Shown: piece after piece, positions 32,059 to 57,436 of the stretch
How positions within the stretch are numbered: position 1 is the first letter of the stretch
Layout of the letters: every line of letters starts with the position of its first letter
Source: Bryopsis sp. KO-2023
Lineage: Eukaryota; Chlorophyta; Ulvophyceae; Bryopsidales; Bryopsidaceae
DNA: 64,000 bases
Assembly: GCA_030272585.1 (NCBI GenBank)
Contig: BSYQ01000006.1
Span: forward strand, 6,597,001 to 6,661,000
Reading direction: 5' to 3'
Position numbers and translations under genes: made by a program
The notes under the pieces: generated by a model
The model's input: the letters and a program-made list of their open reading frames with translations, nothing else
Database searches by the model: none
Told to the model about the DNA's origin: nothing

Positions 32059-32237
32059 ACTTCTCCCCCCATGACTACCTTGAGCACCTGCGAAATCTTT
32101 CGAAAAATCAAGACCTGATGATACCAATCCAAAAGAAACGATCGACTGCACTTCACGACTGCCCATACAATCATGCAACTCGGATTCGAACCCTGGACGT
32201 CTCTGACTCCATCATCAATCCATCACTCTCGATCTCC

Positions 32238-35200
32238 TCACTTCCGCTGTCTGTTTGATTTACGGCGCTTCTGCGTAGTCTGACGGCCGAGATACGCTGT
32301 CAGAATTTCATTGCAGTTCGTCAAATGTTGCAGTGGCTCCCACGTGGCTTCGTGGAGAGGGTAGCCTTTCCAGGCTATGAGGAAGCGTTTTTGCTTTCCT
32401 TGCTTTCCGTTGTCTCTGATAATCGCCTCGACTTCGAATTCCTCAGCTCCTGTTTCGTCGTTTAACACCGGTGGCGGCGGGATCACTTCTCGATCGAAAT
32501 CTGCATGTCGATGAAATTTTTTTAACTTCGATACATGAAAGACGTCATGTATTCGCCACGACCCCGGAAGCTCCACGCGATACGCGACGTCGGAGATTTT
32601 CGCCTTGACGCGCAGAGGCCCCACGTACTTTCTTCGAATCTTCGCCGGGATGTTCGAGTATACCGTGTTAGGTAAATGCGAAATCCGAAGGCATACTTCG
32701 TCGCCCTCCGAAAAAATCAGCTCCCTGCGGTGTTTGTCTGCTTGATCTTTGGTTCGTGCTTGACTGAGCTTGTAGTGGTGTTGTGCGCGCTCCATAATTT
32801 CCTGCATCCGAGTGAGATCCTCTTCGACGCTGTGTAAAGACGTCATCGGCTTGACGTCCGGCAGCGAAATCGGATGCTGCCCGTGAAGAAGGTAGAATGG
32901 ACTGTATCCCGTGCTTGCGTTCCTCAGGTTGTTGAAAGCGAACTCCAACACCTCAATATGATCAGCCCAGCTCTCGGGATGTTCTTCGACATATGGACGC
33001 ATCAGATTTTCGACGGTTTTGATTGTGATTTCGCTCTGGCCGTCACTCTGCGGATGATAGGCGCTGGTGAGCTTGATGTCCGAACCAACCAACTTGAACA
33101 GCTCTCGCCAGAACTGGCTGACGAATCGTGGGTCCCTGTCCGAAATCAGGATGGATGGAAGTCCGAAATGTCGAAATACATTTCGGAAGAATAGATCTGC
33201 GTGCTGCCGAGCATCCATCGTTTTGGTGCATGGACAGAGTTTGGCGTATTTCGTCATTCGATCGACGAAGACTTGAATGGCTGTGAATCCATTCGACTCT
33301 GGGAGGTCTGTCATCAAATCGGTCGTCACTTGATCCCATTTTCGAGAGGGTATCGGTAAGGGCATCAATAATCCAGCTTGTTTTTCATTTGATCCTTTCA
33401 TCATTTGGCATTTTGGACATGATTTGATGTATGCTTTGATGACTTGATTGCATCCTTTCCAGGTATACTTCCTTTTGATGAGTTCTGTAGTCCTTGCAAT
33501 CCCTGGATGTCCAGCCACTTTTGCATCATGATGTGTCTGTAGAATATGTTGTCTCTTGCTGGCTGGAACTACCAATCTTTCCTGCTCATCAGCATCCTTG
33601 TTGATTAGCAATCCTTGATCATCCAAATGATGGTGAGTCACTCTTTGTCCTTTCTCCAACTGGATCATGATTTTATTTGTTCCCTCATCAGCTTTCAATG
33701 CATCTTTCCATTCTTGTATTTCTGTATCACTCCATTGAACCTTAGTAATTGCCATCACTTGTTTTTCATGAACATCTTCTTCTTCTGCTGAACTCCTTGA
33801 TAATGCATCAGCAACCACGTTGGATTTTCCAGGCAGGTATGTCAAAACTGGATTGATGGACTGGAAAAATCCCATCCTCATCCATCTGGCCTGAGTTCTT
33901 GATAATGTTTTCTGCTTCATGAAGTGAATTGCTGGTTTGTGGTCTGTATATACTGTAACAGGTGGTTCTGATCCCTCCAAATAGTGCCTCCAGTACCTTA
34001 GGGCATATGAAATGCCATACATCTCCTTGTCATATGCTCCATAGTTCTGCTCTGATGAGGTGAGTTTCTTACTCAGAAAGGCAATAGGTTTTAAGCCAGC
34101 TCCACTCTCTTGCATTAGGACAGCTCCCACAGCCACATTTGATGCATCAGACACCATCACATAGGGTTTGGATGTGTCAGGTAGGATCAACACTGGTGCC
34201 TTTGTCAATGCTCCTTTCAGTGCTTCAAATGATTGTTGTTGCTTATCTCCCCAGATCCATGGAACCTCCTTTTTGACCAGGTCATTCATTGGGCTGGCCA
34301 GATGAGCAAAATTCTGGATGAATCTCCTGTAGTAGCTGATCATCCCCAAGAAGGATCTGACCTGCTTGACTGAGGTAGGTGCTGGGTATTCTTCAATGGC
34401 TTTGACTTTGTAATTCAGTGGAGAAATCCCTTGTGTAGACACCTTGAATCCCACAAATTCCAGCTCCTGTACTCCAAATTCACATTTGCTTGGTTTTGAA
34501 TATAGTTTGTCCCTCCTGAGCCTGTCCAGCACTTGTTTCACATGCCTGATGTGGTCTTGCATGTTTTTGGAGTAAATGATGATGTCATCAAGGTAGCAGA
34601 TTGCACATTTATCACTCAGCCCTGACAGAGATGCATTCATGGTTCTCATGAAAAAGGCTGGGGCATTAGTTAACCCCATGGGTATGACTGACCATGAGTA
34701 TGCACCATATCGAGTGTTGAATGTTGTGAGATGTCTGTGCTCTTCCTTGATAGGTACTTGCCAATACCCATGCCTGAGATCAACTTTGCTGAAGACCTTT
34801 GCTCCTGCCAATCTGTCCATGAGTTCATCAGGTAGGGGCAGTGGATATTTGTCTTTGACTGTGACTGAGTTTAGCCATCGGTAGTCCACACAAAATCTGA
34901 GCCCCCCATCTTTCTTAGGAGCAAATAGCACTGGAGCCCCCCATGGTGAGACTGCTGGTTCAATGAATTTGTGCTCCAGCAAATATCCAACCTGCCTTTG
35001 GATTTCCTCCAGCTCTGCAGGACTCAATCTGTAGATTGGTTTATTGATTGGTTTTGCATTTTCCTCCAGTTTGATCTCAAATTCAACCCCATGTCTGGTA
35101 GGTGGAATTCCAGCAGGTAAATCCTCTGGAAAAACATCACTGTAATCCAAGATGACCTCCTTTAGCTCTGCTGGCATGTCTGATGTGATTAACTTCTCCA

Positions 35201-38200
35201 GTGGATTTGTCTGATCAGGTTCTTTATCTCCATACATTTCCTTGGCTGGATCCTGATTTTCCTTGTCTTTGACCAACACCATGACTGCATCAGCTCCTTT
35301 TCTGATGGCCTTATTCATTGTGGTGAGTGAGCACAACTGCATGTTGGCTGATTGGAGTAGATGTCTGTCCCCATGTCTGATTGCATTGTGCTTTAGCTTC
35401 AGGGGTAGATTGTACCACTTCCCTTTCCTTTGTATCTTCACTGATGCAGATGCAAAATCAATGGTGGGATTTTCCTTGGCCAGAAATGGTGTTCCCAATA
35501 GGATATCATATCCCAGTTGAGGTAAGATGTGTAGATCCTCTTGAAATTGGATTTTCCCACATCTGAATTTTACTCCTTCCACCATCCCAGTTGTATCCCT
35601 TTTTGTTCCATCAGCCATTTGCAACTGCTGTGTTTTGGATGTGATTGAAAACTTCAATCTGGTTGCACATTCCTGGGATATGTAATTTCCTGTACTTCCT
35701 GAATCCAGACATGCATAAGCTCCTGTGCCTTGCACTCTGATCTCCAACAGATATCCCCTTGATGTGTCTGTGTCTGTGATTGGACACAATGAAATTGGTG
35801 CTTCAGCTTCCCTTGATGTAGGGATTGTAGTGCTGCCAGCACTCTCTGTTCTGTGCAGAGATGTGGGTGTTGATTGATTAGCATTCCCAACATCCTGACT
35901 TGCAACTTCCTCTGTTTCCTTTTGATTCATTGATTGATCCTCCAAACTTTCTGGACTGTGATCAACTGATTCCTCAGAATCCTCTTGTGCATGTAAATCA
36001 TGCATGTCTGACGACTGTGTCCCATGACCAGTCTCCGGTGCACTTTGTTTTCTTGACGTTTCCCCTTTTGGGCTGACGTCTTTCACTTTTTCATTTGTAT
36101 GTGTGACGTCTTTCCATCGCACACGCTTGATGTTCTGATTCTGAACATCCTGATTCTCATTCGATACTGGCACAGTGTGATCGGTCTGCAGCCCTGCACC
36201 TACGCCATCTGTATCGTTTGTTCGATCCCTTGATCGTTTCCACTTCACGCCATACTTCGAATCGGTTACAGCCGCCTTAGCCGCCGGCAATTTGAAACAC
36301 TCCCGAAATAAATGTCCTTTCTTTCCACAGAGAATGCATATTGCATCTTGTTTGTTGAAACCACGTCCACGTCCCCTTCCGCCGCCAAATCCTCGTCCTC
36401 TTCCATAACCACCACGGCCGCCACCCCGGCCATGATCTCTTCTCCCATTCGAGGAGTTCTGAACGGAATTGACGACATCAGGTGCATCTGACGTCTCCGT
36501 AGTAACTGAGTTCAATTGTGATGATGTGTGTTGTCGTCCTCGCCCACGATTACCACCTGATCCACTGTTGTTTTGTCGATTGGCCATGAAAAAGATCCCA
36601 TCCAGACGTTCCGCCATGATACATGCTGTTTGAAAATCTCCATTTGCTTGTGCCATGACCATCTTCCGGATATCCTCCTTAAGTCCGAACACGAACGCCG
36701 AATACATTTCCGACGGTGCCATGTCTGGAATCCTGAAGATCGCTTGGTGAAACCGTCGCAAATATTCTGTCACAGACGTCACTTGTCTGAGATTTCGCAA
36801 TTCAATCCTGGCTTTCTCCCCTGGCGCAAGGGCCTCAAATTGTGCTTGTAATTCCGTCGCGAAAGCTCGCCAGTGGGTCCACGGAACGCGCATCCCCTGC
36901 TGGATTCGCAGTTCCACGACATTCATCCATTTGGCGGCTGATCCCCCAAGATGCGCCGGTAAGATCAAAACCCAATCCTCTTCAGGAATGCGTTGGGCTC
37001 TGAGCCATCTGGTTATTGCAACGATCCACTCGCTAGCCATTTCCTTTGAATCTCCAGTGAACGCTTTTGGTGCATCGATTTTGAGCGAACGAAACGCGCC
37101 ATTAATGCGTCGCGCCTGACGATTATTTCCATCCTCTGCATCCCCTGGTCCATCCGGATCCCCTGGGCCACCTGGTCCTCCAGGCGGTCCACCACTGCCA
37201 CGGTGACCCGAACCACCTCGTCCGGTGCCATCATCAGGTCCATCATCCTCTGGCCCACCGCCACCTCCACCTGGATGTCTTCGCGATCCCGGATTTCGTT
37301 GGCCAACACTGGCGTATGATCCGAGAGCCGCAAACGGATTAAACGGTCTCGACACCCCAGCTGCTTGCGGTATTCCGACCCCAGCACCCAACACTGCCTG
37401 TGGTGCTGGTTGCGATACATGCAATGGAATTGTCATGGGAATCGGCATCTGAATTGGTGATGATGACGTTGCCAGGCTTGATGTTGTAGTGGCAATTTGT
37501 GATGTTCGACTTCCTTCCCGAGTTGATGGTGGGTGAATACTGCTTGGAGACCCACTGGACATTGGTGGAATGAGAGGTGGTGGCATTGGGATTGATGGAC
37601 TGGCCACAGTAGTTGTTCGAACTGTCTGCATTGGGAATGCTGTGATCGTTGTCGGAGGAGGAACATATGATGCCTTGATTTGGTTCTTGATAAGAGCCAA
37701 GATACGATCCTCGGTCCATAATTCCTCCGGATGATTGTCTTGATTTTTCGGATCCGGTATGGCCTTATTGTCCCATGCATCCTCCCAGACCTTATCGATT
37801 CGGGTTTGCAATCGATCTTGATTCTTCAGCACTTCCTTTCGCAGTCTCTCATGTGATTTTTCCTGTGATTCGAGAATCGACGACTTCAAAATCATCTGAC
37901 GATCAGTCATTCGCTGCTCCAATGTTGCAATTGACGATTGCAGCTCGTCCTTGGCAGTTTGTCGATCCCGACCCATCTGATGTACCAACTGCTTGTTTGC
38001 TGTTCGAAATTCAAACTGTAGACTGTCCTTGTTAGCTTGGGCTGTCTCCTGAATGTCTTGGACATTTCCACTCAACACATGCATCCTTTCTTGGACATCT
38101 TGGACATCCCCACTCAGTACATTCATCCGATCTTGTATGCCTTGGACATCACCGCTCAATCCATTCATTCTTTCGCAGACATCCTGGTGGCGATCATCGG

Positions 38201-38720
38201 AGTTCGACACATGTTCCGTCATGAGATTCACCAACTTATCAATTTCGCCTCGTATCCCATGCATCTCGTCTCCGACTCTTTCCTCCAACTCATGAACTTT
38301 TTCCCGAGCTACCCCTTCGGCATAATCCCGATCGTCGAGCCGGTTCTGATTAACGACTTCGAGTCGGTTGTCAAAAGCCTCTGCGACTCTGCCGAAATGA
38401 CGACCAACATCCTCACGAAGCCCAGCCACATTCGCAAATGCTTGATGGACTCCAGCTTCCACCTCTCCCTGTCGATTCTGCACGGCCTGGACGTGATGTT
38501 CCACGTGGACTCTCCGTTGCTCAACGTGTTCCACCAACGCCGCCACTTGTACACGATCATCAACATGCACCACATTCTGTATATGCTGCACGTTCTGGAC
38601 GTTGTTGACGACAAACTGTTGTGCAGGAGGAACTTCGTCCTCTTCGATGCTGGAGTATTCTGTGTCTGGTGTCGACGCTCGGTCGTATGGGACGATAGCT
38701 TGTCCATGTTCGGGGTCCAT
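32238..38720 (-). CDS. Element D Gag-Pol fused in one frame (2,160 aa)
   Basis: Gag and Pol are one continuous frame, so no frameshift is needed. Residues 36-52 hold a VVNNVQNVQHIQN stretch, and a coiled coil follows to about 320. It includes three 14-residue units of the type RMNxLSGDVQDVQE near 183-226. After a Pro/Ser linker and a Gly/Asp-rich stretch come the capsid-like domain, an Arg/Gly-rich tail and the knuckle CILCGKKGHLFREC. The protease has LDSGST (Asp near 1,006), the RT CYLDDIIIYS (near 1,375) and RNase H SDASNVAVGAVL. Integrase has GHPGIARTTELI … CPKCQ and SDRDPRF … HPQSDGQSE. A chromodomain (RFLIAWKGYPLHEATWEP) ends it. It is related to the B/C family in Gag design but lacks the third gene. 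Confidence 0.95.
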   Translation of the reverse strand: MDPEHGQAIVPYDRASTPDTEYSSIEEDEVPPAQQFVVNNVQNVQHIQNVVHVDDRVQVAALVEHVEQRRVHVEHHVQAVQNRQGEVEAGVHQAFANVAGLREDVGRHFGRVAEAFDNRLEVVNQNRLDDRDYAEGVAREKVHELEERVGDEMHGIRGEIDKLVNLMTEHVSNSDDRHQDVCERMNGLSGDVQGIQDRMNVLSGDVQDVQERMHVLSGNVQDIQETAQANKDSLQFEFRTANKQLVHQMGRDRQTAKDELQSSIATLEQRMTDRQMILKSSILESQEKSHERLRKEVLKNQDRLQTRIDKVWEDAWDNKAIPDPKNQDNHPEELWTEDRILALIKNQIKASYVPPPTTITAFPMQTVRTTTVASPSIPMPPPLIPPMSSGSPSSIHPPSTREGSRTSQIATTTSSLATSSSPIQMPIPMTIPLHVSQPAPQAVLGAGVGIPQAAGVSRPFNPFAALGSYASVGQRNPGSRRHPGGGGGGPEDDGPDDGTGRGGSGHRGSGGPPGGPGGPGDPDGPGDAEDGNNRQARRINGAFRSLKIDAPKAFTGDSKEMASEWIVAITRWLRAQRIPEEDWVLILPAHLGGSAAKWMNVVELRIQQGMRVPWTHWRAFATELQAQFEALAPGEKARIELRNLRQVTSVTEYLRRFHQAIFRIPDMAPSEMYSAFVFGLKEDIRKMVMAQANGDFQTACIMAERLDGIFFMANRQNNSGSGGNRGRGRQHTSSQLNSVTTETSDAPDVVNSVQNSSNGRRDHGRGGGRGGYGRGRGFGGGRGRGRGFNKQDAICILCGKKGHLFRECFKLPAAKAAVTDSKYGVKWKRSRDRTNDTDGVGAGLQTDHTVPVSNENQDVQNQNIKRVRWKDVTHTNEKVKDVSPKGETSRKQSAPETGHGTQSSDMHDLHAQEDSEESVDHSPESLEDQSMNQKETEEVASQDVGNANQSTPTSLHRTESAGSTTIPTSREAEAPISLCPITDTDTSRGYLLEIRVQGTGAYACLDSGSTGNYISQECATRLKFSITSKTQQLQMADGTKRDTTGMVEGVKFRCGKIQFQEDLHILPQLGYDILLGTPFLAKENPTIDFASASVKIQRKGKWYNLPLKLKHNAIRHGDRHLLQSANMQLCSLTTMNKAIRKGADAVMVLVKDKENQDPAKEMYGDKEPDQTNPLEKLITSDMPAELKEVILDYSDVFPEDLPAGIPPTRHGVEFEIKLEENAKPINKPIYRLSPAELEEIQRQVGYLLEHKFIEPAVSPWGAPVLFAPKKDGGLRFCVDYRWLNSVTVKDKYPLPLPDELMDRLAGAKVFSKVDLRHGYWQVPIKEEHRHLTTFNTRYGAYSWSVIPMGLTNAPAFFMRTMNASLSGLSDKCAICYLDDIIIYSKNMQDHIRHVKQVLDRLRRDKLYSKPSKCEFGVQELEFVGFKVSTQGISPLNYKVKAIEEYPAPTSVKQVRSFLGMISYYRRFIQNFAHLASPMNDLVKKEVPWIWGDKQQQSFEALKGALTKAPVLILPDTSKPYVMVSDASNVAVGAVLMQESGAGLKPIAFLSKKLTSSEQNYGAYDKEMYGISYALRYWRHYLEGSEPPVTVYTDHKPAIHFMKQKTLSRTQARWMRMGFFQSINPVLTYLPGKSNVVADALSRSSAEEEDVHEKQVMAITKVQWSDTEIQEWKDALKADEGTNKIMIQLEKGQRVTHHHLDDQGLLINKDADEQERLVVPASKRQHILQTHHDAKVAGHPGIARTTELIKRKYTWKGCNQVIKAYIKSCPKCQMMKGSNEKQAGLLMPLPIPSRKWDQVTTDLMTDLPESNGFTAIQVFVDRMTKYAKLCPCTKTMDARQHADLFFRNVFRHFGLPSILISDRDPRFVSQFWRELFKLVGSDIKLTSAYHPQSDGQSEITIKTVENLMRPYVEEHPESWADHIEVLEFAFNNLRNASTGYSPFYLLHGQHPISLPDVKPMTSLHSVEEDLTRMQEIMERAQHHYKLSQARTKDQADKHRRELIFSEGDEVCLRISHLPNTVYSNIPAKIRRKYVGPLRVKAKISDVAYRVELPGSWRIHDVFHVSKLKKFHRHADFDREVIPPPPVLNDETGAEEFEVEAIIRDNGKQGKQKRFLIAWKGYPLHEATWEPLQHLTNCNEILTAYLGRQTTQKRRKSNRQRK

Positions 38721-38854
38721 TCTGTCTGTCGCGACGACTTTTTCTGTGGGTCGTCTTCAGTCGCACTTTGTCTTTGGCGACTGCGATGGATTGTGAGCGT
38801 GGGTGTTTCTGCTGAGCTGGCTGGTCAGCTGCTTTCGTTTCGTCGTGCGTGAAA

Positions 38855-38866
38855 GCTCCGAAACCA
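38855..38866 (-). promoter_or_regulatory. Primer-binding site of element D
   Basis: The complement GCTCCGAAACCA lies two bases inside the 5' LTR (38,869-38,988). It is the same primer word as in B, C, E and F. Confidence 0.8.
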
Positions 38867-38868
38867 AT

Positions 38869-38988
38869 TGAAATGATAATTCGAGAGAAAATATACAATG
38901 TTTTACAACTCAAAAGATCCGTCTCTTATAGTCCCCACTCTAACCGTTTCCACCACATTAACGACTCAGTTCCAAACCAATCATAACA
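38869..38988 (-). repeat. Element D 5' LTR (120 bp)
   Basis: It pairs with 31,939-32,058. The target duplication CTTCG follows at 38,989-38,993. Confidence 0.95.
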
Positions 38989-39370
38989 CTTCGCGCATTT
39001 AAAGAGAAAGAAAGAAAAGAGTTGCAGAAAGGAAGAGAATAGGGAAACAGAGTGTTTGATGGCTAAGGTGGAACTCCTTATAGCAAGGGGGCGCGAAAAA
39101 GGATACCTTAGAAAAACTCTGTCGACTTCCAAACCAACTCTTTAACTTTAATGCGTTAGGTGCCTAAGTTATTTGGCTGGCGCAGTAAGTGTAGCTTCAG
39201 TAGTACTTTAGAAACCGGGCAAACGATGTCACATTCGAGATAGTGTGGTTGTTCCGAGAAAACCCCTATCAAGTGACGTGTTGAGGTGGTCTTGACGAGA
39301 CTCCAACCGAGCAAAACGTTGGTGTCTCACCCCAATAACCCAACGAGGAAAGTGTACGAGTCACCCAGCC

Positions 39371-39377
39371 TTATAAG
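39371..39377 (+). promoter_or_regulatory. TATA-like word upstream of the third gene in C
   Basis: TTATAAG lies 122 bases before the ATG of the third gene, in the roughly 0.5-kb gap after pol. It is conserved in B at 46,757. It could be an internal promoter, or chance. Confidence 0.3.
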
Positions 39378-39492
39378 CGCAGCCCTTGAACCATTTTGCC
39401 CTAGTGTTTGTGTAAACGGAGCGAGCTCCTGAGTAGAAAAGAGTCTAAAGACACACAAACCGTTGTTTATATCTTTCTTTCCGACAAACATA

Positions 39493-41307
39493 ATGGCTGC
39501 CGACACACCCGCCGCAATTATTGCGAGGTTGGAAGCGGAGGTAGCTCAAAAAGAAGAGGAGCTGCAGCACTTTACGTCGACCGCAGAGGAAGTGCTGCAG
39601 AACAATGAGGCCTTAACCCGGCAGCTCTCAGAGTTGAGTGACCGGACGAAAGCAGCTGAGGCTGCGAAGGAGGCAGCGGAGAAAGCCAAGGAAAAGGCAG
39701 AGGCGGAAAGGAAAGAAGCGGAGGACAAGACTAAGGTCTTGGAAGAAAAATTGGAAGCCATGAAGCTGAAAAAGCAAAGGTTCCAATCTCACATGATGGC
39801 TAACCATCGTGAGAATGACCTCCGTAAGCAAGCTCTCGGGGGAATGGTGGATCGATTTACCGCGGTAGAGGAAACGCTGCAGCGAGCTGTAGCAACCGCG
39901 TGGAGTGCAGCAGCCAACAACCTTAAGAAGGAATTGGCAGAACAAGAGCTGCAGATCGATTTGCTGGGAGAGTCCCTCAGAGACGGCTCTGAAAAGCTTC
40001 AAGTGCAGAGCGAAACAACGGACAAGATGCTGCGTTTGAACCCGGCGGTACCAGCACCACGGGTACGCGAAGAACTGGATCGCCAAGTCCAAGTTCTGTT
40101 GTCAAACGCAACACTTGATCTGGAACCGTCCAAGGACGATGATGCGGGAGGCTCAAGCAAGGGCAAGGGGAAAGGGAAAAACAAACGCCCAAGCTCGCCG
40201 TGTAGGGATGAAGATCCACACGGAAAGAGAAGGCGAGAGGACGGTGACGATGAAGGTGGTGAGCCACCGAGGGATCGTATGCCTGGAGATGCAGCAAGAG
40301 CCAACTTGTTACTCAAGTTAAAGGCTGCCGCATTAAAGACTCCAGCACCCTCACAACCAGCGCCAACAGTTCAGACTCCCGGAGATGAGGCTACCGCAAT
40401 AGCACCGGGGGAGGACTTATTCGACATGAGAGAGGAGGAGCTTTTGGACTTGGATTTTAACGAAGAAATTGACTTCGGCAGTCCACCTCCTAGGCTCGAA
40501 GGTCCTAGTTCTGAACTGGAGGACGGGGAAATAAGGAATGATGAAGGGCCAAGCCAGGTGACAGAGGTTCAGCGTGCGGTCCATCCACCGTTGGAGTTAG
40601 CTCCAACAGAAGCAGCACTTCGGGCTTTCCGAGAAAAGGTTAAGCTCAGAAGACTAAGGGCGGCTGCTCAGGACAAAGTGGATGCTGCACCCAGCGAAGT
40701 GAACCTGTCACGGGAGGATATCGAGGAGGCTTGCAACCCCATCACTGCGTCAGAGAAATGGCCGAAGGTCCAATATACGAACCCCAGGGACCGAGCCTTG
40801 CAAAATTACCGCGGCAACCGGCACTTTCACGAGTTGCCCATGTGCATTTGGTGCGGGAGAAGCCCAATGCAAGCAAGTGCTCAGCGGCTGACGCAGAAGA
40901 AGTATTCCGTCCTTCCTTGTGGGTATCACCTCGTGTGTGATGCTCATTGGTTGGCATACTCGATGCTGGGGCGCATCGTCACGGCGGTCCAAAAAGTCGC
41001 GGAAGTGGACAACAAGTCCATCGCCACCGTCTCCCCATTCTCTCTACCTGCCCATATGTTGAAGCTGACACGCTCGACGTTCGAAGAAATCCCTCCGTTC
41101 CCGGCTGAGCACGAGAAGTTGCCACACTGCAACATGTGTGTCAAGCGGCAGCTCAAGGTGTCCGGCATCACAAGGGATCTGCCATTCCTTAAGTCCAAGA
41201 GGGTGGCTGCCGCATTTGATCCCTGTGTCCGGTATCGTGCAGTGCAGCAAGCGCATGCGCAGGAGCAGCGTGCTATCCAGCAAGCGCAAGCGCAGGAACA
41301 GCGTTAA
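39493..41307 (+). CDS. Element C third protein (604 aa): coiled coil, basic signal, RING-like Cys/His set
   Basis: This gene occupies the env position after pol but has no signal peptide or membrane segment. Residues 10-180 are an Ala/Glu/Lys-rich coiled coil. Residues 225-250 hold two basic clusters (GKGKNKRP and GKRRRED), like a bipartite nuclear signal. Residues 305-350 are acidic. Residues 451-549 carry Cys451-X2-Cys454, Cys476-X2-His479, Cys482-X2-His485 and Cys546-X2-Cys549, the ligand order of a RING-H2 cross-brace with a long last loop. The tail has AHAQEQR/AQAQEQR repeats. The start is the ATG heading MAADTPAA, since upstream in-frame codons differ between copies. The function is unknown; ubiquitin ligase or scaffold activity is only a guess. 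Confidence 0.85.
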   Translation: MAADTPAAIIARLEAEVAQKEEELQHFTSTAEEVLQNNEALTRQLSELSDRTKAAEAAKEAAEKAKEKAEAERKEAEDKTKVLEEKLEAMKLKKQRFQSHMMANHRENDLRKQALGGMVDRFTAVEETLQRAVATAWSAAANNLKKELAEQELQIDLLGESLRDGSEKLQVQSETTDKMLRLNPAVPAPRVREELDRQVQVLLSNATLDLEPSKDDDAGGSSKGKGKGKNKRPSSPCRDEDPHGKRRREDGDDEGGEPPRDRMPGDAARANLLLKLKAAALKTPAPSQPAPTVQTPGDEATAIAPGEDLFDMREEELLDLDFNEEIDFGSPPPRLEGPSSELEDGEIRNDEGPSQVTEVQRAVHPPLELAPTEAALRAFREKVKLRRLRAAAQDKVDAAPSEVNLSREDIEEACNPITASEKWPKVQYTNPRDRALQNYRGNRHFHELPMCIWCGRSPMQASAQRLTQKKYSVLPCGYHLVCDAHWLAYSMLGRIVTAVQKVAEVDNKSIATVSPFSLPAHMLKLTRSTFEEIPPFPAEHEKLPHCNMCVKRQLKVSGITRDLPFLKSKRVAAAFDPCVRYRAVQQAHAQEQRAIQQAQAQEQR

Positions 41308-41502
41308 GGAGGAGGGAAAAGGAGTTATCGTCGACCAAGTGTGTGCGTGCAGCAGCTGTCAGAGACGTCCAAGCAAGAGACAGGTCCAAGACAGTTGGGT
41401 GTGGGTATGGGAGTGGGTGAGTTTTGTGTTTGTGTTTTTGTGTTTTTGTTTTTCTTTGTGTTTTGGTGTGCGTGGGCGCCCACTTTTTGCGGGGGGGGCG
41501 TA

Positions 41503-41928
41503 TGTTAGTCTTTTAGCGCTATACGAGGTAGTTTGGGATAGAGCCGAGGGTGGCTGACGCATGTGGGTTCGCGAGTAAGACAGATTAGACCCAGAGTTTG
41601 GGGCATGCGTCAGCGTACTACACTTAGGGGTACTTAAGAGGCCCACTCGTTGTTTTGACATTCTTATTCACTTTATTTTGTAAGAACTCGGGATTCGTGG
41701 GATTGGTGTGTTCCCGCTTGTGTGTGTGTTTGTGTGTGTGTGTGTTAAGTGTTTGCCTGACGCAATCACTTCCCAACCCAAGTGCTCTAGTAGCGTTCAC
41801 AACCGCGCTAGCTAGAGAGTTGTCTAAACCAACAAACCCCACAAGTATACTTGCGTTAGCCAGCAAGTTATCACGAATCCAATCAACACAGCCGACCACT
41901 ATTGCGTCACCCACAAGCTTCACTATCA
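41503..41928 (+). repeat. Element C 3' LTR
   Basis: It is identical by eye to 24,956-25,381. It is preceded by a G-rich polypurine tract (TTTTTGCGGGGGGGGCG) and followed by the target duplication GGATC. Confidence 0.95.
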
Positions 41929-41933
41929 GGATC

Positions 41934-42433
41934 ACCAGTATTTGCTCTTCGTGGATGGACTTAAAAGTGAAGTTCAGAAGTTAGTCGCAGCAACGGTACC
42001 TCGAGATGTCGAGGCCGCCATCATATCCGCCGAACGATTGGAAGCCCTTGGAGTTGGAACACAAGGCCAAGGAGGGCAAACCAATCAGAAAAAGAAAGGA
42101 GTCTGGCGTGGTGGAAGAAAGAAGAAAGGCCAGAATCAGGGTCAGCAGCAGCAGAACCCTACACCACCAGCCCAAGCACCACCACAAGCTGCCGCAGGAG
42201 TGCAACAGCAGCAGCAACAGCAACAAGGACGAGGAGGAGGACGTGGTGGTGGTGGACGTGGACGCGGTGGTGGTAACCGTGGAAGAGGACAAGCCAATCA
42301 GGGAAGACAGAACCCCCAGGGGGGAGGGGGATATCATTGTTATCTTTGTGGAAAGAAGGGTCATCCTGTGAGGCAATGTCCTAGATTGGAGGAGGTGAAA
42401 AACCTCCCCGATGTAAAAAAAATGTTAAACTGA
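41934..42433 (+). CDS. Element B gag, 3' part
   Basis: This is the continuation of the B Gag after the insertion of C. It holds the end of the capsid-like domain, a Gln-rich run, an Arg/Gly-rich basic stretch and the knuckle CYLCGKKGHPVRQC. The A-rich run before the stop is the same as in C. Confidence 0.85.
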
Positions 42434-42687
42434 CCGCCAGGCAGGAAACTGCTTCGTCTGAGCCTGGCCGACGCAAACGTCGTAAGCGAAACAGAGTTCG
42501 TAGGCGGCGTAGGAAGCATAGATCAAAAGTAGGTGCCTCGAAAAAGGTTAGTACTCACAGCGGAAAACCTGGGGCGCGGACTAGTACACCGCGTGAAGAG
42601 AGAACAGAGACACTCTCCACATCTACCCAATCGGCACATGACAACTGCGATTGGAAAAATGAACAGAAGGAAAGCACACCGGATGAG

Positions 42688-45600
42688 ATGGACGCGCCTC
42701 ATGCGTCATCTGCATCTCTTCCCTCTGTTAGTGAATCTGTGGGCTCATTGGAGTCGCAGAGTAGTCTACAGGAGTCCCTGCCTGCAGACGTAGACGATAG
42801 TGGGTCAGAAACAACCCAGCGGTCTACCACAGAGCGAGTTAATGTGTCAGAAGTTCGATCAACTTCATCAACCAAGGGTGACACATGCCCTCTGTTAAAA
42901 ATTCAAGAAGTGCCTGTGAGAGGGTACGAAGTAAAAGCACGGATTAAGACCACGGACCTTTATGCATTCATTGATTGTGGAAGTACCGCAAACTATATCA
43001 ATGATAAGGTAGCGCGTGATCTCGGGTTGTCGATTACACCAAGCTCAAAGAGAGCAATGTTGGCAAACGGAGATATTAAAGAATTGGCTGGCAGCTGTAA
43101 CAACCTCCGAGTAAAGATAGGAGGGCTGAAGTGCAAAATGAAAGCGGATCTGTTCCCAGACCTTGGTTATGACCTAATATTGGGCATGCCTTGGTTGCAG
43201 AAAGAAAACCCCCGCATAGACTTTCAGCAGAATGAGATTTCAGTTTGCAAAAACAGCCAAGTGTTTCATCTCCCGTTGCGTCATCCAACCCAAGAGAGTA
43301 TTGAACCTGAACGAAAAGTACAGTCGATACTGCAAGAAGTGCCAGTGACTGAGTGTTCAGCTAAACGAATGATGCGTCATCTCAAAACAGAGACAGCATT
43401 CATGGTTGTAGTGCAAGAGTCTGAAGAGAAAGCTTTAGGCCAACATGAATTGCCTGACGCAATAGAGCGAACACAGCCATTCAACACTGAGGATGAGATT
43501 GGTAAACTTATTCGTTCAGACACCCCTGCCGAAATTAAAAAGGTGGTAGAAACACACCGTGGTGTGTTCCCTCGTGATTTACCCCCAGGGATCCCTCCGA
43601 AGAGAAAAGGTCATGAGTTTAAGATAGACCTGGAGGATCCAACACCTATCCATCGTCCAATATACAAGCTTTCACCAGCAGAGCTGGATGAAGTGAAAGC
43701 ACAAGTGGACTACCTTCTGGAACAGAAGAAAATCAAACCATCCGAGTCCCCTTGGGGCGCGCCAATCCTATTTGTACCGAAAAAGGATGGAGGCTTAAGG
43801 ATGTGTGTGGATTACAGGTGGATCAATAAGGTGACGGTGAAAAACCGATATCCTTTACCCCTGCCAGAAGAATTGATGGATAGAGTGTTCAAAGCCAAAG
43901 TGTTCTCGAAGTTAGATCTGCGATCAGGCTATTGGCAATTTCCAGTAAGGCCATCTGATACAGATAAAACAGCGTTCCGCACGAGATACGGTCACTTTGA
44001 GTTTTTGGTAGCGCCTTTTGGGCTAACCAATTGCCCAGCGCAATTCCAAACTCTAGTGCAAGACCTACTCGCAGAGTTTTTAGATGATTTTGTTGTTGTC
44101 TTTATCGATGACATACTCATCTTCTCTGAAAACATGGAACAGCATGCCGAACACTTAGAGAAAGTCCTGTCGCGACTAGCAGAATATCAGCTTTTTGCTA
44201 AGGCAAGTAAAAGTGAGCTGGCTGTCGCAACAGTAGACTATCTTGGCTACCGCATTAGCGGAAGTGGGTTAAAACCACAGGAACAAAAAGTGAAGGCAGT
44301 GAAGGAGTGGAAGGAACTACAGAGTGTTAGTGATGTACGTAGTTTCCTTGGAATGGTTTCATACTACAGGAAATTCATTCCCCAGTTTGCACATGTTGCT
44401 GGACCACTCCATGACTTAGTGAAAAAAGACCATCCCTGGAGATGGGGACAGGTTGAGCGTGGCGCATTCAATGAACTGAAAAAGCGTTTAAGTCAAGCTC
44501 CCGTCCTTATTTTTCCAGATGCGTCACTGCCTTACACTGTGATCACTGATGCGTCGAATGAGGCCATCGGTGCCGTGTTAACACAGGATCACGGAGAGGG
44601 GCTGCAGCCAATAGCTTACCTCTCACGTAGATTCAAGCCTGCCGAGCTTAACTATGCACCATACGACAAAGAGTTGTGTGCAATATGTTATGCGATGGTG
44701 CAGTGGAGACATTATCTAGAAGGTTGTGCGGGTGGAGTAACAGTGTTCACTGACCACCAACCTCTGACGCATATTCTGTCGCAGAGGAACCTTTCTAGAA
44801 CCCAAGCAAGATGGCTTGAGGCGGGGTACCTGACTTCGATCAACCCCAAGATCTCCTATATCAAAGGCAAGGCTAATGTGTTAGCAGATGCTCTCTCCCG
44901 CAGTGTTCCTAAGCCCGTGGAAACTGCGATGAACATTTCCACTTGGCAAGTGCATCAAGCAAGCCAAGACGAGTGGAAACAAGCCCTCCAAGCTGATAAC
45001 TCCTTGGTGAAGATATTGCGGAAGCTTGAGAGTGGCGAGGAAGTTGAGGGATATTTCCTCAGAGAGGAAATACTCTGGACGGTCCCAAAGAGAGGATTAG
45101 TCGAGAAAGTGGTGGTTCCTAAAGGCCAGCGCAATAAGATTATGAAGGAGTGCCATGAGACACCTTCAGCAGGCCATACAGGACCAGCGCGAACAGGAGA
45201 AATCCTAGCGCGGCGATATTGGTGGAAGGGGTGGATGAATGAGTTGAAGGCATTTGTGCGCGAATGCCCTGTGTGCCAACAAATAAAGGCTGACACACAG
45301 AAGCCTATGGGCTTACTTCAACCCCTGCCAATACCTGAGCGGAAGTGGGAGCAGATTACCACTGACTTGGTGACAGATCTACCAGCATCCAATGGGTTTA
45401 GTGCTGTAGCTGTCTTTGTCGATAGACTTACCAAGTTTGTGCATTTCGCCCCATGTACTAAAGAGATTACCGCTGCAGGATACGCCCAACTTTTTATCGA
45501 ACATGTTTACCGCAACCATGGCCTACCTAAAGTGATTGTGTCTGATAGAGACCCTCGCTTTACCAGCAAGTTCTGGCAGACGCTTTTTAAAGCTCTGGGT

Positions 45601-46428
45601 ACAGAGATTCGTATGAGTACAGCTTACCACCCTCAGACGGATGGGCAGAGTGAGGTTACCATACGTACTCTGGAAAATTTTCTAAGGCCATATGCTGAGA
45701 GGTATCCCCATAAGTGGGTTGAGTATTTACCTACAGCAGAGTTTGCAGCAAACAATGCAGTGAATGCGAGTACAGGGTTCGCACCTGCATATTTGATGTA
45801 TGGGTACCATCCAGAAACACCAAACATTGGTGGGACGGCAACGCAATTTCAGGTGGAAGCAGTTAAGACTATGGTAGCACGGATGGCACAGGACTTAGAT
45901 ACCGCAAAAGCATATTACTCTAGAGCACAACACAGAATGTGTGTGAGTGCAAACAAGAAGAGGAAAGATATTGCTTTTGAGAAAGGGGATAAAGTCCTGA
46001 TAAAAAGCCGTTTTATTCCGTTGGCTGCTTTGAACAAAGTGAGTCCCAAACTGCGCCGTCGATTTGTGGGTCCCTTTGAAATTGTGGAGAAAATATCAAA
46101 GGTGGCTTACAGAGTTCAACTTCCGGAAACATGGCTCATTCACCCAGTGTTTCATGTTTCTAAGTTCAAGCGTTATCACGCCTCGAGTGATAACAGCAGG
46201 CAAATACAACCTCCAGAAGGAGAGTTGATTGGTAGCGAAGTAGAGTATGAGGTCGAAAATATCCTAAGGGCTAGAGGTAAACGCAATCGTGAATACCTAG
46301 TGCTGTGGAAAGGATACGATCTACTTGACGCTACTTGGGAACCTGAAGCTAATCTGGTTAACGCACCAGATATACTTCGCGCATTTAAAGAGAAAGAAAG
46401 AAAAGAGTTGCAGAAAGGAAGAGAATAG
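42688..46428 (+). CDS. Element B Pol (1,246 aa)
   Basis: It has the same domain order as the Pol of C: protease (FIDCGST), RT (FIDDILIF), RNase H, integrase (HHCC, then SDRDPRF … HPQTDGQSE) and chromodomain. Here the natural C-terminus is seen (…APDILRAFKEKERKELQKGRE), just beyond the point where D interrupts C. It lies in the -1 frame relative to gag. The two Pol sequences differ at only a few residues, in line with recent common descent. Confidence 0.92.
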   Translation: MDAPHASSASLPSVSESVGSLESQSSLQESLPADVDDSGSETTQRSTTERVNVSEVRSTSSTKGDTCPLLKIQEVPVRGYEVKARIKTTDLYAFIDCGSTANYINDKVARDLGLSITPSSKRAMLANGDIKELAGSCNNLRVKIGGLKCKMKADLFPDLGYDLILGMPWLQKENPRIDFQQNEISVCKNSQVFHLPLRHPTQESIEPERKVQSILQEVPVTECSAKRMMRHLKTETAFMVVVQESEEKALGQHELPDAIERTQPFNTEDEIGKLIRSDTPAEIKKVVETHRGVFPRDLPPGIPPKRKGHEFKIDLEDPTPIHRPIYKLSPAELDEVKAQVDYLLEQKKIKPSESPWGAPILFVPKKDGGLRMCVDYRWINKVTVKNRYPLPLPEELMDRVFKAKVFSKLDLRSGYWQFPVRPSDTDKTAFRTRYGHFEFLVAPFGLTNCPAQFQTLVQDLLAEFLDDFVVVFIDDILIFSENMEQHAEHLEKVLSRLAEYQLFAKASKSELAVATVDYLGYRISGSGLKPQEQKVKAVKEWKELQSVSDVRSFLGMVSYYRKFIPQFAHVAGPLHDLVKKDHPWRWGQVERGAFNELKKRLSQAPVLIFPDASLPYTVITDASNEAIGAVLTQDHGEGLQPIAYLSRRFKPAELNYAPYDKELCAICYAMVQWRHYLEGCAGGVTVFTDHQPLTHILSQRNLSRTQARWLEAGYLTSINPKISYIKGKANVLADALSRSVPKPVETAMNISTWQVHQASQDEWKQALQADNSLVKILRKLESGEEVEGYFLREEILWTVPKRGLVEKVVVPKGQRNKIMKECHETPSAGHTGPARTGEILARRYWWKGWMNELKAFVRECPVCQQIKADTQKPMGLLQPLPIPERKWEQITTDLVTDLPASNGFSAVAVFVDRLTKFVHFAPCTKEITAAGYAQLFIEHVYRNHGLPKVIVSDRDPRFTSKFWQTLFKALGTEIRMSTAYHPQTDGQSEVTIRTLENFLRPYAERYPHKWVEYLPTAEFAANNAVNASTGFAPAYLMYGYHPETPNIGGTATQFQVEAVKTMVARMAQDLDTAKAYYSRAQHRMCVSANKKRKDIAFEKGDKVLIKSRFIPLAALNKVSPKLRRRFVGPFEIVEKISKVAYRVQLPETWLIHPVFHVSKFKRYHASSDNSRQIQPPEGELIGSEVEYEVENILRARGKRNREYLVLWKGYDLLDATWEPEANLVNAPDILRAFKEKERKELQKGRE

Positions 46429-46877
46429 GGAAGCAGAGTGTTTGATGGCTAAGGTGGAACTCCTTATAGCAAGGGGGCGTGAAAAAGGATACCTTAGAAA
46501 AACTCTGTCGACTTCCAAACCAACTCTTTAACTTTAATGCGTTAGGTGCCTAAGTTATTTGGCTGGCGCAGTAAGTGTAGCTTCAGTAGTACTTTAGAAA
46601 CCGGGCAAACGATGTCACATTCGAGATAGTGTGGTTGTTCCGAGAAAACCTCTATCAAGTGACGTGTTGAGGTGGTCTTGACGAGACTCCAACCGAGCAA
46701 AACGTTGGTGTCTCACCCCAATAACCCAACGAGGAAAGTGTACGAGTCACCCAGCCTTATAAGCGCAGCCCTCGAACCATTTTGCCCTAGTGTTTGTGTA
46801 AACGGAGCGAGCTCCTGAGTGAAAAAGAGTCTAAAGACGCACAAACCGTTGTTATATCTTTCTTTCCGACAAACATA
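46429..46877 (+). promoter_or_regulatory. Pol-to-third-gene gap in B with TATA-like word
   Basis: The 449 bp separates pol from the third gene and is nearly the same in C. TTATAAG at 46,757-46,763 lies 121 bases before the ATG. The gap may hold a promoter, or a splice acceptor for a subgenomic RNA of the kind other retroelements use for downstream genes. I cannot tell which. Confidence 0.3.
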
Positions 46878-48692
46878 ATGGCTGCCGACACACCCGCCGC
46901 AATTATTGCGAGATTGGAAGCGGAGGTAGCTCAAAAAGAAGAGGAGCTGCAGCACTTTACGTCGACCGCAGAGGAAGTGCTGCAGAACAATGAGGCCTTA
47001 ACCCGGCAGCTCTCAGAGTTGAGTGACCGGACGAAAGCAGCTGAGGCTGCGAAGGAGGCAGCGGAGAAAGCCAAGGAAAAGGCAGAGGCGGAAAGGAAAG
47101 AAGCGGAGGACAAGACCAAGGTCTTGGAAGAAAAATTGGAAGCCATGAAGCTGAAAAAGCAAAGGTTCCAATCTCACATGATGGCTAACCATCGTGAGAA
47201 TGACCTCCGTAAGCAAGCTCTCGGGGGAATGGTGGATCGATTTACCGCGGTAGAGGAAACGCTGCAGCGAGCTGTAGCAACCGCGTGGAGTGCAGCAGCC
47301 AACAACCTTAAGAAGGAATTGGCAGAACAAGAGCTGCAGATCGATTTGCTGGGAGAGTCCCTCAGAGACGGCTCTGAAAAACTTCAAGTGCAGAGCGAAA
47401 CAACGGACAAGATGCTGCGTTTGAACCCGGCGGTACCAGCACCACGGGTACGCGAAGAACTGGATCGCCAAGTCCAAGTTCTGTTGTCAAACGCAACACT
47501 TGATCTGGAACCGTCCAAGGACGATGATGCGGGAGGCTCAAGCAAGGGCGAGGGGAAAGGGAAAAACAAACGCCCAAGCTCGCCGTGTAGGGATGAAGAT
47601 CCACACGGAAAGAGAAGGCGAGAGGACGGTGACGATGAAGGTGGTGAGCCACCGAGGGATCGTATGCCTGGAGATGCAGCAAGAGCCAACTTGTTACTCA
47701 AGTTAAAGGCTGCCGCATTAAAGACTCCAGCACCCTCACAACCAGCGCCAACAGTTCAGACTCCCGGAGATGAGGCTACCGCAATAGCACCGGGGGAGGA
47801 CTTATTCGACATGAGAGAGGAGGAGCTTTTGGACTTGGATTTTAACGAAGAAATTGACTTCGGCAGTCCACCTCCTAGGCTCGAAGGTCCTAGTTCTGAA
47901 CTGGAGGACGGGGAAATACGGAATGATGAAGGGCCAAGCCAGGTGACAGAGGTTCAGCGTGCGGTCCATCCACCGTTGGAGTTAGCTCCAACAGAAGCAG
48001 CACTTCGGGCTTTCCGAGAAAAGGTTAAGCTCAGAAGACTAAGGGCGGCTGCTCAGGACAAGGTGGATGCTGCATCCAGCGAAGTGAACCTGTCACGGGA
48101 GGATATCGAGGAGGCTTGCAACCCCATCACTGCGTCAGAGAAATGGCCGAAGGTCCAATATACTAACCCCAGGGACCGAGCCTTGCAAAATTACCGCGGC
48201 AACCGGCACTTTCACGAGTTGCCCATGTGCATTTGGTGCGGGAGAAGCCCAATGCAAGCAAGTGCTCAGCGGCTGACGCAGAAGAAGTATTCCGTCCTTC
48301 CTTGTGGGTATCACCTCGTGTGTGATGCTCATTGGTTGGCATACTCGATGCTGGGGCGCATCGTCACGGCGGTCCAAAAAGTCGCGGAAGTGGACAACAA
48401 GTCCATCGCCACCGTCTCCCCATTCTCTCTACCTGCCCATATGTTGAAGCTGACACGCTCGACGTTCGAAGAAATCCCTCCGTTCCCGGCTGAGCACGAG
48501 AAGTTGCCACACTGCAACATGTGTGTGAAGCGGCAGCTCAAGGTGTCCGGCATCACAAGGGATCTGCCATTCCTTAAGTCCAAGAGGGTGGCTGCCGCAT
48601 TTGATCCCTGTGTCCGGTATCGTGCAGTGCAGCAAGCGCATGCGCAGGAGCAGCGTGCTATTCAGCAAGCGCAAGCGCCGGAACAGCGTTAA
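46878..48692 (+). CDS. Element B third protein (604 aa)
   Basis: It has the same length and design as the product at 39,493-41,307: coiled coil, two basic clusters, acidic stretch, and the eight Cys/His residues at the same positions. The substitutions that I see (for example K to E in the basic cluster region and P to S) leave these residues alone. Both copies have complete frames, which suggests the gene was maintained until recently. Its start is set by the conserved MAADTPAA. Confidence 0.85.
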   Translation: MAADTPAAIIARLEAEVAQKEEELQHFTSTAEEVLQNNEALTRQLSELSDRTKAAEAAKEAAEKAKEKAEAERKEAEDKTKVLEEKLEAMKLKKQRFQSHMMANHRENDLRKQALGGMVDRFTAVEETLQRAVATAWSAAANNLKKELAEQELQIDLLGESLRDGSEKLQVQSETTDKMLRLNPAVPAPRVREELDRQVQVLLSNATLDLEPSKDDDAGGSSKGEGKGKNKRPSSPCRDEDPHGKRRREDGDDEGGEPPRDRMPGDAARANLLLKLKAAALKTPAPSQPAPTVQTPGDEATAIAPGEDLFDMREEELLDLDFNEEIDFGSPPPRLEGPSSELEDGEIRNDEGPSQVTEVQRAVHPPLELAPTEAALRAFREKVKLRRLRAAAQDKVDAASSEVNLSREDIEEACNPITASEKWPKVQYTNPRDRALQNYRGNRHFHELPMCIWCGRSPMQASAQRLTQKKYSVLPCGYHLVCDAHWLAYSMLGRIVTAVQKVAEVDNKSIATVSPFSLPAHMLKLTRSTFEEIPPFPAEHEKLPHCNMCVKRQLKVSGITRDLPFLKSKRVAAAFDPCVRYRAVQQAHAQEQRAIQQAQAPEQR

Positions 48693-48887: not shown

Positions 48888-49306
48888 TGTTAGTCTTTTA
48901 GCGCTATACGAGGTAGTTTGGGATAGAGCCGAGGGTGGCTGACGCATGCGGGTTCGCGAGTAAGACAGATTAGACCCAGAGTTTGAGGCATGCGTCAGCG
49001 TACTACACTTAGGGGTACTTAAGAGGCCCACTCGTTGTTTTGACATTCACTTTATTTTGTAAGAACTCGGGATTCGTGGGATTGGTGTGTTCCCGCTTGT
49101 GTGTGTGTTTGTGTGTGTGTGTCTAAGTGTTTGCCTGACGCAATCACTTATCCAACCAAGTGCTCTAGTAGCGTTCACAACCGCGCTAGCTAGAGAGTTG
49201 TCTAAACCAACAAACCCCACAAGTATACTTGCGTTAGCCAGCAAGTTATCACGAATCCAACCAACACAGCCGACCACTATTGCGTCACCCACAAGCTTCA
49301 CTATCA
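48888..49306 (+). repeat. Element B 3' LTR
   Basis: It is identical by eye to 22,240-22,658 and is followed by the target duplication TCAAC. Confidence 0.95.
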
Positions 49307-51512: not shown

Positions 51513-51822
51513 TGTTACAAGCGTTTTTCTATCGTTCTTTGATTGGATTAGGTAAGTTGTGGTAAGGGTTTTGAAGTGGTAGGTGCTGTGTAGTTGTGAA
51601 ACGGGTAGTCGGGGTTAGACGAGATTAGGTACGGTTATGTAAGGGGTAGTCAGGTTCCTGGGAGCTTCACCTCACTGTGAAGTTCCCAGGGAAAGAAGGT
51701 TCCAGAGAGTTCTTGGAAGGGGTTCGCCCAAGTATATAAGGGCATTGGTTTTGACACTCATTGTAACTTTTTCCGACTTCATTTATCCTTGTTCCAACGT
51801 CCTTTACGCCCCAGGCGTAACA
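51513..51822 (+). repeat. Element E 5' LTR
   Basis: The TATA box TATATAAG lies at 51,733-51,740. In U3 a 14-bp inverted repeat with one mismatch and a 6-base loop (CCTGGGAGCTTCAC … GTGAAGTTCCCAGG) lies at 51,657-51,690. Confidence 0.95.
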
Positions 51823-51824
51823 AT

Positions 51825-51837
51825 TGGTTTCGGAGCC
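51825..51837 (+). promoter_or_regulatory. Primer-binding site of element E
   Basis: TGGTTTCGGAGCC lies two bases after the 5' LTR. It is the same word as in the other LTR families of the window. Confidence 0.8.
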
Positions 51838-51923
51838 GACGATCCTTTGGACCAACAGTGATTTGGTTTCCAAAAAGGAGTCACGGGGAAGCTATACCGT
51901 TACGGACCGTGCCGTGAGGGAAA

Positions 51924-53087
51924 ATGATGAGAATGGGCCCACTGATGCTTGTGGTGGTTTGGAGTTTGCTGTGTGTCGGAGGACGGGCACACTACGGAGC
52001 GGCCGCGCAAACACCGCTCTCCAAACCCAACGATGTGGAGTTATTGCACGATTTGAAGCGATTGAGAGATGAGAACGCGGAGATGAAAAAAGAGCGTTTG
52101 CAGTTGATGGAGTCGTTGAACCTATTGAAACGGCAAGTTCGGGAAATGAAGCAAGAGAATGGAGAGAACAAGGGTGCTTCAGCAGGAGATTGGTTCGCGA
52201 GTTTCTTTTCCGCATCGCAACCGGAAGTTACGATTGAAGGATGTTCCTCGGTGTGGTGTTGTTTCACTCTGATGAAGGATGTGAGCATGGAGCTGGGGAA
52301 AAAATTGTTTGCTTTTGGATGGAGATTCGTGAAGGACCCTATCAGTGGAGTGTATAAGTTGTGGAAAATTGCTGAGAGAGCTGAAATATCAGAGTTTTTG
52401 GGTGGAGTCCTTATTTTACTCATTCTGAATGGATTGGCTTTTTGCGTAATGGAAGTAAAAAAGGTGATGAATGCACTGGGCCGTGGATTCAAATTGTTGG
52501 GGAAATTGCCTTTGGTGGAGATGATAAAATATATGTGGAGCATCACAAAGAAGGTTTTGAGTCCTGCTTTGGCGGCAATTAAGGAGAAGGAAACCAAAGA
52601 GGAGAAAAATAAAAAGGACGAAGAGAACATGAAGCTGGTTATGGAGATGTTGACTCAAATGGGCCAGGAACTGCAAGAGCTCAAGAATGTGAAACAAGAG
52701 CCCAAGCCAGTGTACCAAAGGGCGCAAGTGGAGTGTCACCATTGTGGAAAAAAGGGTCATTACGCTTTCGCATGCCCCAGGAAGACATGTATGTTTTGTG
52801 GCAGAACCGGACATCGATCACATGAGTGTAAACAAGCCAAACCATGTGGACACTGTGGAATTAAAGGCCATTTGACGAGAGACTGTCAACGTCGAGGAAA
52901 CCAAGGTGGCCAAAGAAGGGAAAGGTCAGCCTCACCGGATAGTGGATTCGCTTTTCGTCAACGTGAGGAAAGCCCAAGGGGAAGGTCAAGGAGCCCTGTG
53001 AGAATGGACAAGGCACCTACTCTCAATGCTTTGACAGCACCTGAGCCTTCCGCCCCCCCACAGTCGGAAAACTGCCAAGCTCTCTAG
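51924..53087 (+). CDS. Element E Gag with signal peptide and membrane segment (387 aa)
   Basis: Residues 1-21 are a strong signal peptide ([20 protein letters not shown]). Residues 36-80 are a Lys/Glu-rich coiled coil, WFASFF lies near 90, residues 158-177 are a hydrophobic membrane segment, and residues 215-260 are again highly charged. Three CX2CX4HX4C zinc knuckles follow at 271-284, 289-302 and 308-321, then an Arg/Ser-rich tail ([14 protein letters not shown]). The same plan is seen in the degraded element G. Known Ty3/gypsy Gag proteins lack export signals, so particle assembly at a membrane is inferred. Pol follows in the -1 frame. An env-derived signal is unlikely, since the knuckles identify the protein as Gag. 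Confidence 0.85.
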
Positions 53088-53104
53088 ACTGTGAAGGTTC
53101 CAGT

Positions 53105-57082: not shown

Positions 57083-57121
57083 AGGAAAAATTGGGGACAA
57101 TTTTTATTAAGAGAGGGGAAT

Positions 57122-57431: not shown

Positions 57432-57436
57432 AAAGC

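Follow-up and report, generated by a model that had tools for sequence, protein, structure and literature searches.

The window analysed here, 64,000 bases of the siphonous green alga Bryopsis sp. KO-2023 (contig BSYQ01000006.1, positions 6,597,001 to 6,661,000), holds two nested long terminal repeat (LTR) retrotransposons, element C (22240-49306) and element B (24956-41928), the latter inserted in the gag of the former. Both carry, after pol, a third gene in sense direction, ORF3, which is the subject of this report. The two elements are chromoviruses, with reverse transcriptase (RT), RNase H, integrase and a C-terminal chromodomain in a single pol, LTRs, and a 5-base target duplication (GGATC for B, TCAAC for C); in the pol of C the Pfam matches are to RVT_1 (3.5e-33), RNase H, rve and Chromo (1.9e-12). 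Pieced together from B and C, the layout runs gag, pol in the -1 frame, a gap of 449 bases, ORF3 and 3' LTR (Table 1). The TATAA motif in the gap, which might mark a promoter for ORF3, lies within its longest invariant run, the length of which is not above chance (permutation p 0.30).

Architecture of the third gene

ORF3 runs intact from ATG to stop in both elements, the two copies differing at 11 bases in 1815; being near-identical, they do not constitute independent evidence. The first third of the protein is heptad-rich, as expected of a long coiled coil. Basic residues are concentrated at about 224-248, with a bipartite pattern within 231-248 that may serve as a nuclear signal, while residues 301-430 are acidic (30 Asp and Glu vs 15 Lys and Arg). 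The hydropathy maximum over 19 residues is 1.0, and hence there is no membrane segment. To this extent the protein is the one described by an earlier, sequence-only reading of this DNA, which had reported an intact 604-codon gene after pol in both elements, with a long coiled coil, basic clusters, an acidic stretch, eight Cys/His residues (C451, C454, C476, H479, C482, H485, C546 and C549) and no envelope character. What does not survive is its assignment of the eight residues to RING-H2 order: the actual string is C-x2-C-x21-C-x2-H-x2-C-x2-H-x60-C-x2-C, that is, C3HCHC2, and the RING-HC and RING-H2 patterns both fail on the window protein.

The place between pol and the 3' LTR is the site of env-like genes in other LTR elements, and the sense ORFs described in the excerpted text of PMC7264820 resemble ORF3 in being in sense direction, kept in many copies and uncertain in role. 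This position is what speaks for a component of the virus-like particle, whether an accessory structural protein or one akin to an envelope. The ORFs of those excerpts are, however, env-like, some with membrane segments, and occur in elements of other hosts, whereas the Bryopsis protein has no membrane segment and instead joins an eight-Cys/His domain to a long coil. It also lacks BLASTP similarity to the element's gag, and a role in the particle is accordingly quite improbable; the idea of a second gag was dropped on the same BLASTP result.

Copies in the host genome and selection on ORF3

The assembly of the host comprises 91.1 Mb in 28 contigs. With full ORF3 as query, the best 73 of 301 candidates are all 99-100% identical and stop-free, although, having been taken as the best-scoring, they give no measure of intactness; with residues 427-586, the best 150 of 274 candidates are all at least 98% identical. 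The ORF3 family is thus young, and for that reason intactness alone proves little. Five same-orientation copies of the element recur exactly every 10,264 bases at G000:C9:270927-312282, a series that is either a tandem array or an assembly effect.

A fairer view of selection comes from copies ranked not by ORF3 but by the C-terminal 100 residues of pol (the best 150 of 1089 candidates). Five of these were dropped (four tandem copies and window element C), 60 were drawn at random, and 20 of the 60 form the sample; one entry, L039, coincides with the locus L005, the row of which supplied its sequence. ORF3 is present, whole or in part, in all 20, with a frame of at least 593 codons in 13 and a broken one in seven. 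ORF3 thus belongs with the additional sense ORFs of LTR elements, lying between pol and 3' LTR and being kept from copy to copy. In the copy alignment L001 (window element B itself) was omitted, and L034, L036, L043 and L045 entered by their aligned stretch only.

Across the 20 copies there are 53 nonsynonymous and 85 synonymous variants, which, at an expected nonsynonymous share of 0.71, gives a ratio of 0.26 (p 3.5e-15); these counts enter each variant once per site and ignore shared ancestry and gene conversion. The purifying selection to which the sequence-only reading had looked for support is thus present. It is weakest in the coiled-coil-like residues 1-190 (31 nonsynonymous, 27 synonymous, ratio 0.48) and much stronger both in residues 191-430 (12 and 35, 0.14) and in the zinc-type part at residues 431-565 (6 and 19, 0.13). 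Variants found in more than one copy show the greater shortage (16 nonsynonymous against 34 synonymous, ratio 0.19), as selection during the spread of the copies would lead one to expect, and those found in a single copy are short of nonsynonymous changes as well (37 against 51, ratio 0.30).

Earlier counts over 28 rows (58 nonsynonymous, 99 synonymous; 42, 15 and 100 variants at the three codon positions) come from a set that includes copies ranked by ORF3 score, and the 20 copies drawn by pol are for this reason the fair set. The comparison with the 3' end of pol (10 nonsynonymous, 51 synonymous) is biased, because most of the copies had been selected as identical (100%) over the final 100 pol residues. 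In the 28 rows no nonsynonymous variant falls at any of the 22 Cys/His codons, and hence none at the eight ligands; since only about 0.8 change would be expected at the eight by our estimate, invariance within the family says little by itself.

These counts bear directly on the view that ORF3 is a passenger, a captured gene fragment carried along unselected in one young burst. The youth of the family and the weakness of intactness as evidence are in its favor. It is nevertheless contradicted already by the strong nonsynonymous shortage and by the occurrence of the same domain in diverged families, set out below, and could be rescued only if the variant counts were an artefact of assembly or gene conversion, so that we regard it as very improbable indeed.

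Diverged families and the eight-ligand domain

A search with pol finds RT-RNase H relatives at up to 79% identity, the nearest of them on short contigs, metagenomic ones included. One relative at 67% (P0018) is filed under a bacterial genome, Parasphingorhabdus, and matches a locus of the genome from which the window comes, G000:C7:5661505-5664876, at 100% identity. In view of this identity to an algal retrotransposon of the same assembly, the bacterial label probably reflects contamination of a genome bin obtained from algal culture; the bacterial genomes of the algal culture are described in PMC12509668, in the excerpts of which the named bin does not appear. Another entry, P0036 (Marinobacter), may be contamination of the same kind. 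Viral contigs gave no match to ORF3 or pol, and prokaryote genome contigs none to pol. In an RT tree of 47 rows the window family falls in a supported group with its nearest relatives.

With P0018 as query, further Bryopsis families appear at 65, 61 and 56-57% (among the best 41 of 2194 candidates), and a third frame again follows pol, of 247 codons in L050, 287 in L051, 337 in L056 and 626 in L055 (measured stop to stop). The eight-ligand signature lies in the frame after pol in four families with diverged pol, namely L050, L051, L055 and L049/L056, so that, with the window family, five Bryopsis families carry this type of gene. The third frames of L050 and L051 match at 33% (E 4.5e-13), and those of L050 and the P0018 family at 38% (E 1.8e-7). 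For the L055 family the zinc-type part lies downstream of at least 25 of the 34 listed pol copies, 22 of them at 1.76-1.79 kb and the others at 1.68, 2.20 and 2.26 kb. Beyond its own family, a search with the L055 domain returns 71 matches among the best 150 of 339 candidates, at 33-38% identity (E 1.8e-8 to 5.0e-6); the frames that contain them often measure some 630 or 660 codons. With L057, a further signature-bearing locus, as query the matches are less strong (E 0.002-0.03) and lie in frames of roughly 516-556 codons. All told, one 91 Mb genome holds hundreds of matches to several lineages of the ORF3-type gene. On the other side, no trace of it is seen in 152 kb from other chromovirus families, read at 19 loci of which several belong to one family.

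Alignment of the six rows available (window, L050, L051, L055, L056 and L057) gives the common form C-x2-C-x8..21-C-x2-H-x2-C-x2-H-x39..60-C-x2-C, with x3 in place of the second x2 in L057. The eight Cys/His and L492 are the only invariant columns, at 20-24% identity to the window row. The sequence-only reading had asked whether the eight positions are constrained in other copies; their invariance here holds across families, which is a stronger result. Because they are invariant, the eight Cys/His would be expected to bind zinc. When the window row is left out and a profile is made of the remaining five, the window gene scores E 8e-7 in a set of 875 frames, in which no unrelated frame does better than 0.44. 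With both the window and L057 left out, the profile still detects L057 (E 1.6e-6) and, at 5e-5 and 1e-4, the window gene; with the window and L055 left out, it detects L055 at 6e-4. The link to the window is good when L055 is in the profile and weak otherwise. The signature pattern itself has no match in the 152 kb of other-family loci and none in 30 shuffled versions of the window. Taken together, the selection counts, the relatives after pol, the invariant columns and the held-out profiles establish ORF3 as a conserved coiled-coil, zinc-type third gene common to several families.

Acidic tails are seen by eye in the third proteins of L050, L051 and L055. Along with the basic and acidic residues 191-430, which in the window family are as constrained as the zinc-type part, they are what one would look for in a chromatin or transcription factor, the domain of which would bind DNA or a histone mark and the acidic part of which would switch on the LTR or oppose silencing. 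No DNA-binding family is matched above cut-off, however, and the acidic activator is a matter of composition only; we consider this role rather unlikely.

The nature of the domain and its possible function

The paired arrangement of eight Cys/His is shared with RING fingers of the C3HC4 and C3H2C3 types, and the sequence C-P-x-C, found at the last ligand pair in three of the six rows (L050, L056 and L057), occurs in many RING fingers. On the strength chiefly of these four pairs, the window core LPCG-x-H-x-x-C-x-x-H and the C-P-x-C of the three rows, a RING-like design appears to be the nearest known one. The ligand orders C3HC4 and C3H2C3 are not found in any of the six rows, all of which have C3HCHC2, and the LIM pattern of ligand order and spacing likewise fails on the window protein. 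The profile search proposed earlier as a check of RING similarity came out negative, with no significant Pfam match and no PDB profile match at E 10: the best Pfam RING match is zf-RING_5, at E 0.021 in one of the six trimmed rows, and in the longer frames no RING family is matched. A protein search with ORF3 yields, among the matches listed, only two Bryopsis gene models, apparently chimeric pieces of the same family, and one with residues 385-604 yields nothing at E 1.

Our preferred reading, to which we assign roughly an even chance, is that ORF3 is a genuine sense-direction third gene of a Bryopsis chromovirus group, coding for a coil and metal-domain protein that is kept for the element's spread. 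The coil, basic cluster, metal-type domain and missing membrane segment would fit a nuclear or cytosolic accessory protein with a host or element partner. On this reading the protein would pair or oligomerise via its coiled coil, the small domain would fold around two metal sites formed by the eight Cys/His (C3HCHC2), and the element would retain the gene since its own spread depends on it. The basic cluster suggests that the protein may work in the nucleus. The domain might be a RING-like adaptor that engages some partner in the host, conceivably a ubiquitin enzyme, so that a host factor limiting the element is modified or removed; this adaptor role is the least sure step. In its most specific form the proposal would have a whole chromovirus group encode a separate class of coiled-coil adaptor, ubiquitin-type and with a RING-like C3HCHC2 domain unrecognised by Pfam and NCBIfam, and use it to disarm a host factor; this we consider somewhat unlikely. 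Ubiquitin, chromatin, RNA-export and nuclear-import roles are all suggestions drawn from the features of the protein.

A number of observations weigh against the preferred reading or its RING-like form. Among the seven broken copies of the sample, ORF3 is frameshifted or carries a stop in L031, L034 and L038 and is cut, split or rearranged in L036, L043, L045 and L046. Element D of the window lies, with the ORF3 family, within the wider supported RT group of 19 rows, yet is without an ORF3-type gene. In L057, one of the six aligned sequences, the domain is preceded by a coiled-coil-like stretch but the 1.5 kb upstream contain no pol. The profile lacking the window and L055 gives the window gene no better than E 0.014, against 0.066 for the highest-scoring unrelated frame. 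As to the domain, a RING-like design has against it the order of the ligands, the lengths of the loops and the fact that Pfam, NCBIfam and PDB give no significant match, their weak ones being mostly to coiled coils. Textbook RING spacing limits hold in two of the six rows, the window row not among them, the loops of the other four lying outside these limits. The common RING types have Cys as sixth ligand, which here is His. Two AlphaFold runs without alignment, made before the relatives were known, reached pLDDT values of 39 and 41, too low to inform on a cross-brace fold around two zinc ions.

L057 (C12:1363631-1364416) and a second place, C8:2549019-2549801, are two copies of one coiled-coil, eight-ligand frame; such frames could be a decayed element, a solitary gene or a host source of the domain.

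Extra genes in LTR retrotransposons are known, the role of many of them being guesswork. One precedent is CERV of the C. elegans element Cer1, by the abstract of PMC10309623 an extra LTR-retrotransposon protein that is nuclear and forms large assemblies; that abstract names no zinc-type domain. Like CERV in the worm, ORF3 might oligomerise, through its coiled coil, on unspliced element RNA and export it from the nucleus, with the zinc-type domain binding RNA or an export partner. This proposal draws on the CERV precedent and on the finding of a separate gene with coil and basic cluster in a Ty3/gypsy element; since the resemblance to CERV is one of role only, and Pfam gives no match to an RNA-binding family, we judge it unlikely. 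An RNA-export or chromatin role nonetheless fits the data nearly as well as a RING-like adaptor.

In bdelloid rotifers, too, LTR elements carry family-specific third genes, some of them coiled-coil; the types given in the excerpted text of PMC5408684 are GDSL, DEDDy, TM, CC and env, and the words RING and zinc are absent from that text. According to the excerpts of PMC9289625, an orchid Gypsy lineage likewise gained and kept an extra gene, of AlkB type, with a known enzyme domain, whereas Bryopsis ORF3 matches no known domain. Among the papers listed from one open-access collection, titles and abstracts reveal no LTR retrotransposon whose third gene is RING-like, which is not proof of absence.

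What the Bryopsis genome adds is a single third-gene type traceable through several diverged families, with eight residues kept and most of the remainder free to change. The eight-residue part is thereby marked as a testable active part, and recent copies are numerous enough in this genome for selection to be counted. Were the domain in fact RING-like, retrotransposons of a green alga would come equipped to act on the protein tagging of their host.

Other features of the window

Table 1. Positions of the features of elements B, C and D in the window.
Feature	Position	Strand	Remarks
5' LTR of C	22240-22658	+	419 bases, 100% identical to 3' LTR
5' LTR of B	24956-25381	+	426 bases, 100% identical to 3' LTR
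gag of B	25527-27989	+	820 codons; capsid-type domain
Element D, chromovirus of another family	31939-38992	-	breaks pol of B just before its end; duplication CTTCG; no third gene
ORF3 of B	39493-41307	+	604 codons and stop, ATG start
Coiled-coil-like N-terminal part, ORF3 of B	39493-40062	+	residues 1-190; heptad count, weak coiled-coil-type Pfam matches
Bipartite basic cluster, ORF3 of B	40183-40236	+	residues 231-248; nuclear-signal-like
Eight-ligand zinc-type domain, ORF3 of B	40843-41139	+	residues 451-549
3' LTR of B	41503-41928	+	
pol of C	42385-46428	+	protease, RT, RNase H, integrase, chromodomain
pol-ORF3 gap of C	46429-46877	+	449 bases; TATAA at 46758
ORF3 of C	46878-48692	+	604 codons and stop, ATG start; open frame from 46791
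Eight-ligand zinc-type domain, ORF3 of C	48228-48524	+	
3' LTR of C	48888-49306	+	

In element B the pol frame opens at 27941 (-1) and overlaps gag (27941-27989); the sequence A-AAA-AAA shortly ahead of the gag stop could be where ribosomes shift frame. Element D encodes gag and pol in a single frame of 2160 codons (32238-38720), the N-terminal part of which is long and looks coiled, and its LTRs are short, at about 125 bases. A further chromovirus at 51513-57432 has 311-base LTRs, 99.7% identical, with the duplication AAAGC; neither in it nor in D is there room for an ORF3-type gene between pol and LTR. Its pol includes a dUTPase between protease and RT (Pfam 1.4e-40), and its first ORF (51924-53087) has, by eye, a signal-like hydrophobic start and a second hydrophobic stretch, together with three CCHC knuckles. 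A gag with such membrane-type segments seems unusual. Two frames elsewhere, one with a signal-like start, a coil and a hydrophobic segment (6103-6837) and one with a CCHC knuckle and a protease-like part (7867-8841), look like a diverged relative of this gag. At the start of the window (1-2143) lies a large inverted repeat with arms of 851 bases, 95% complementary, and a gap of 441 bases between them.

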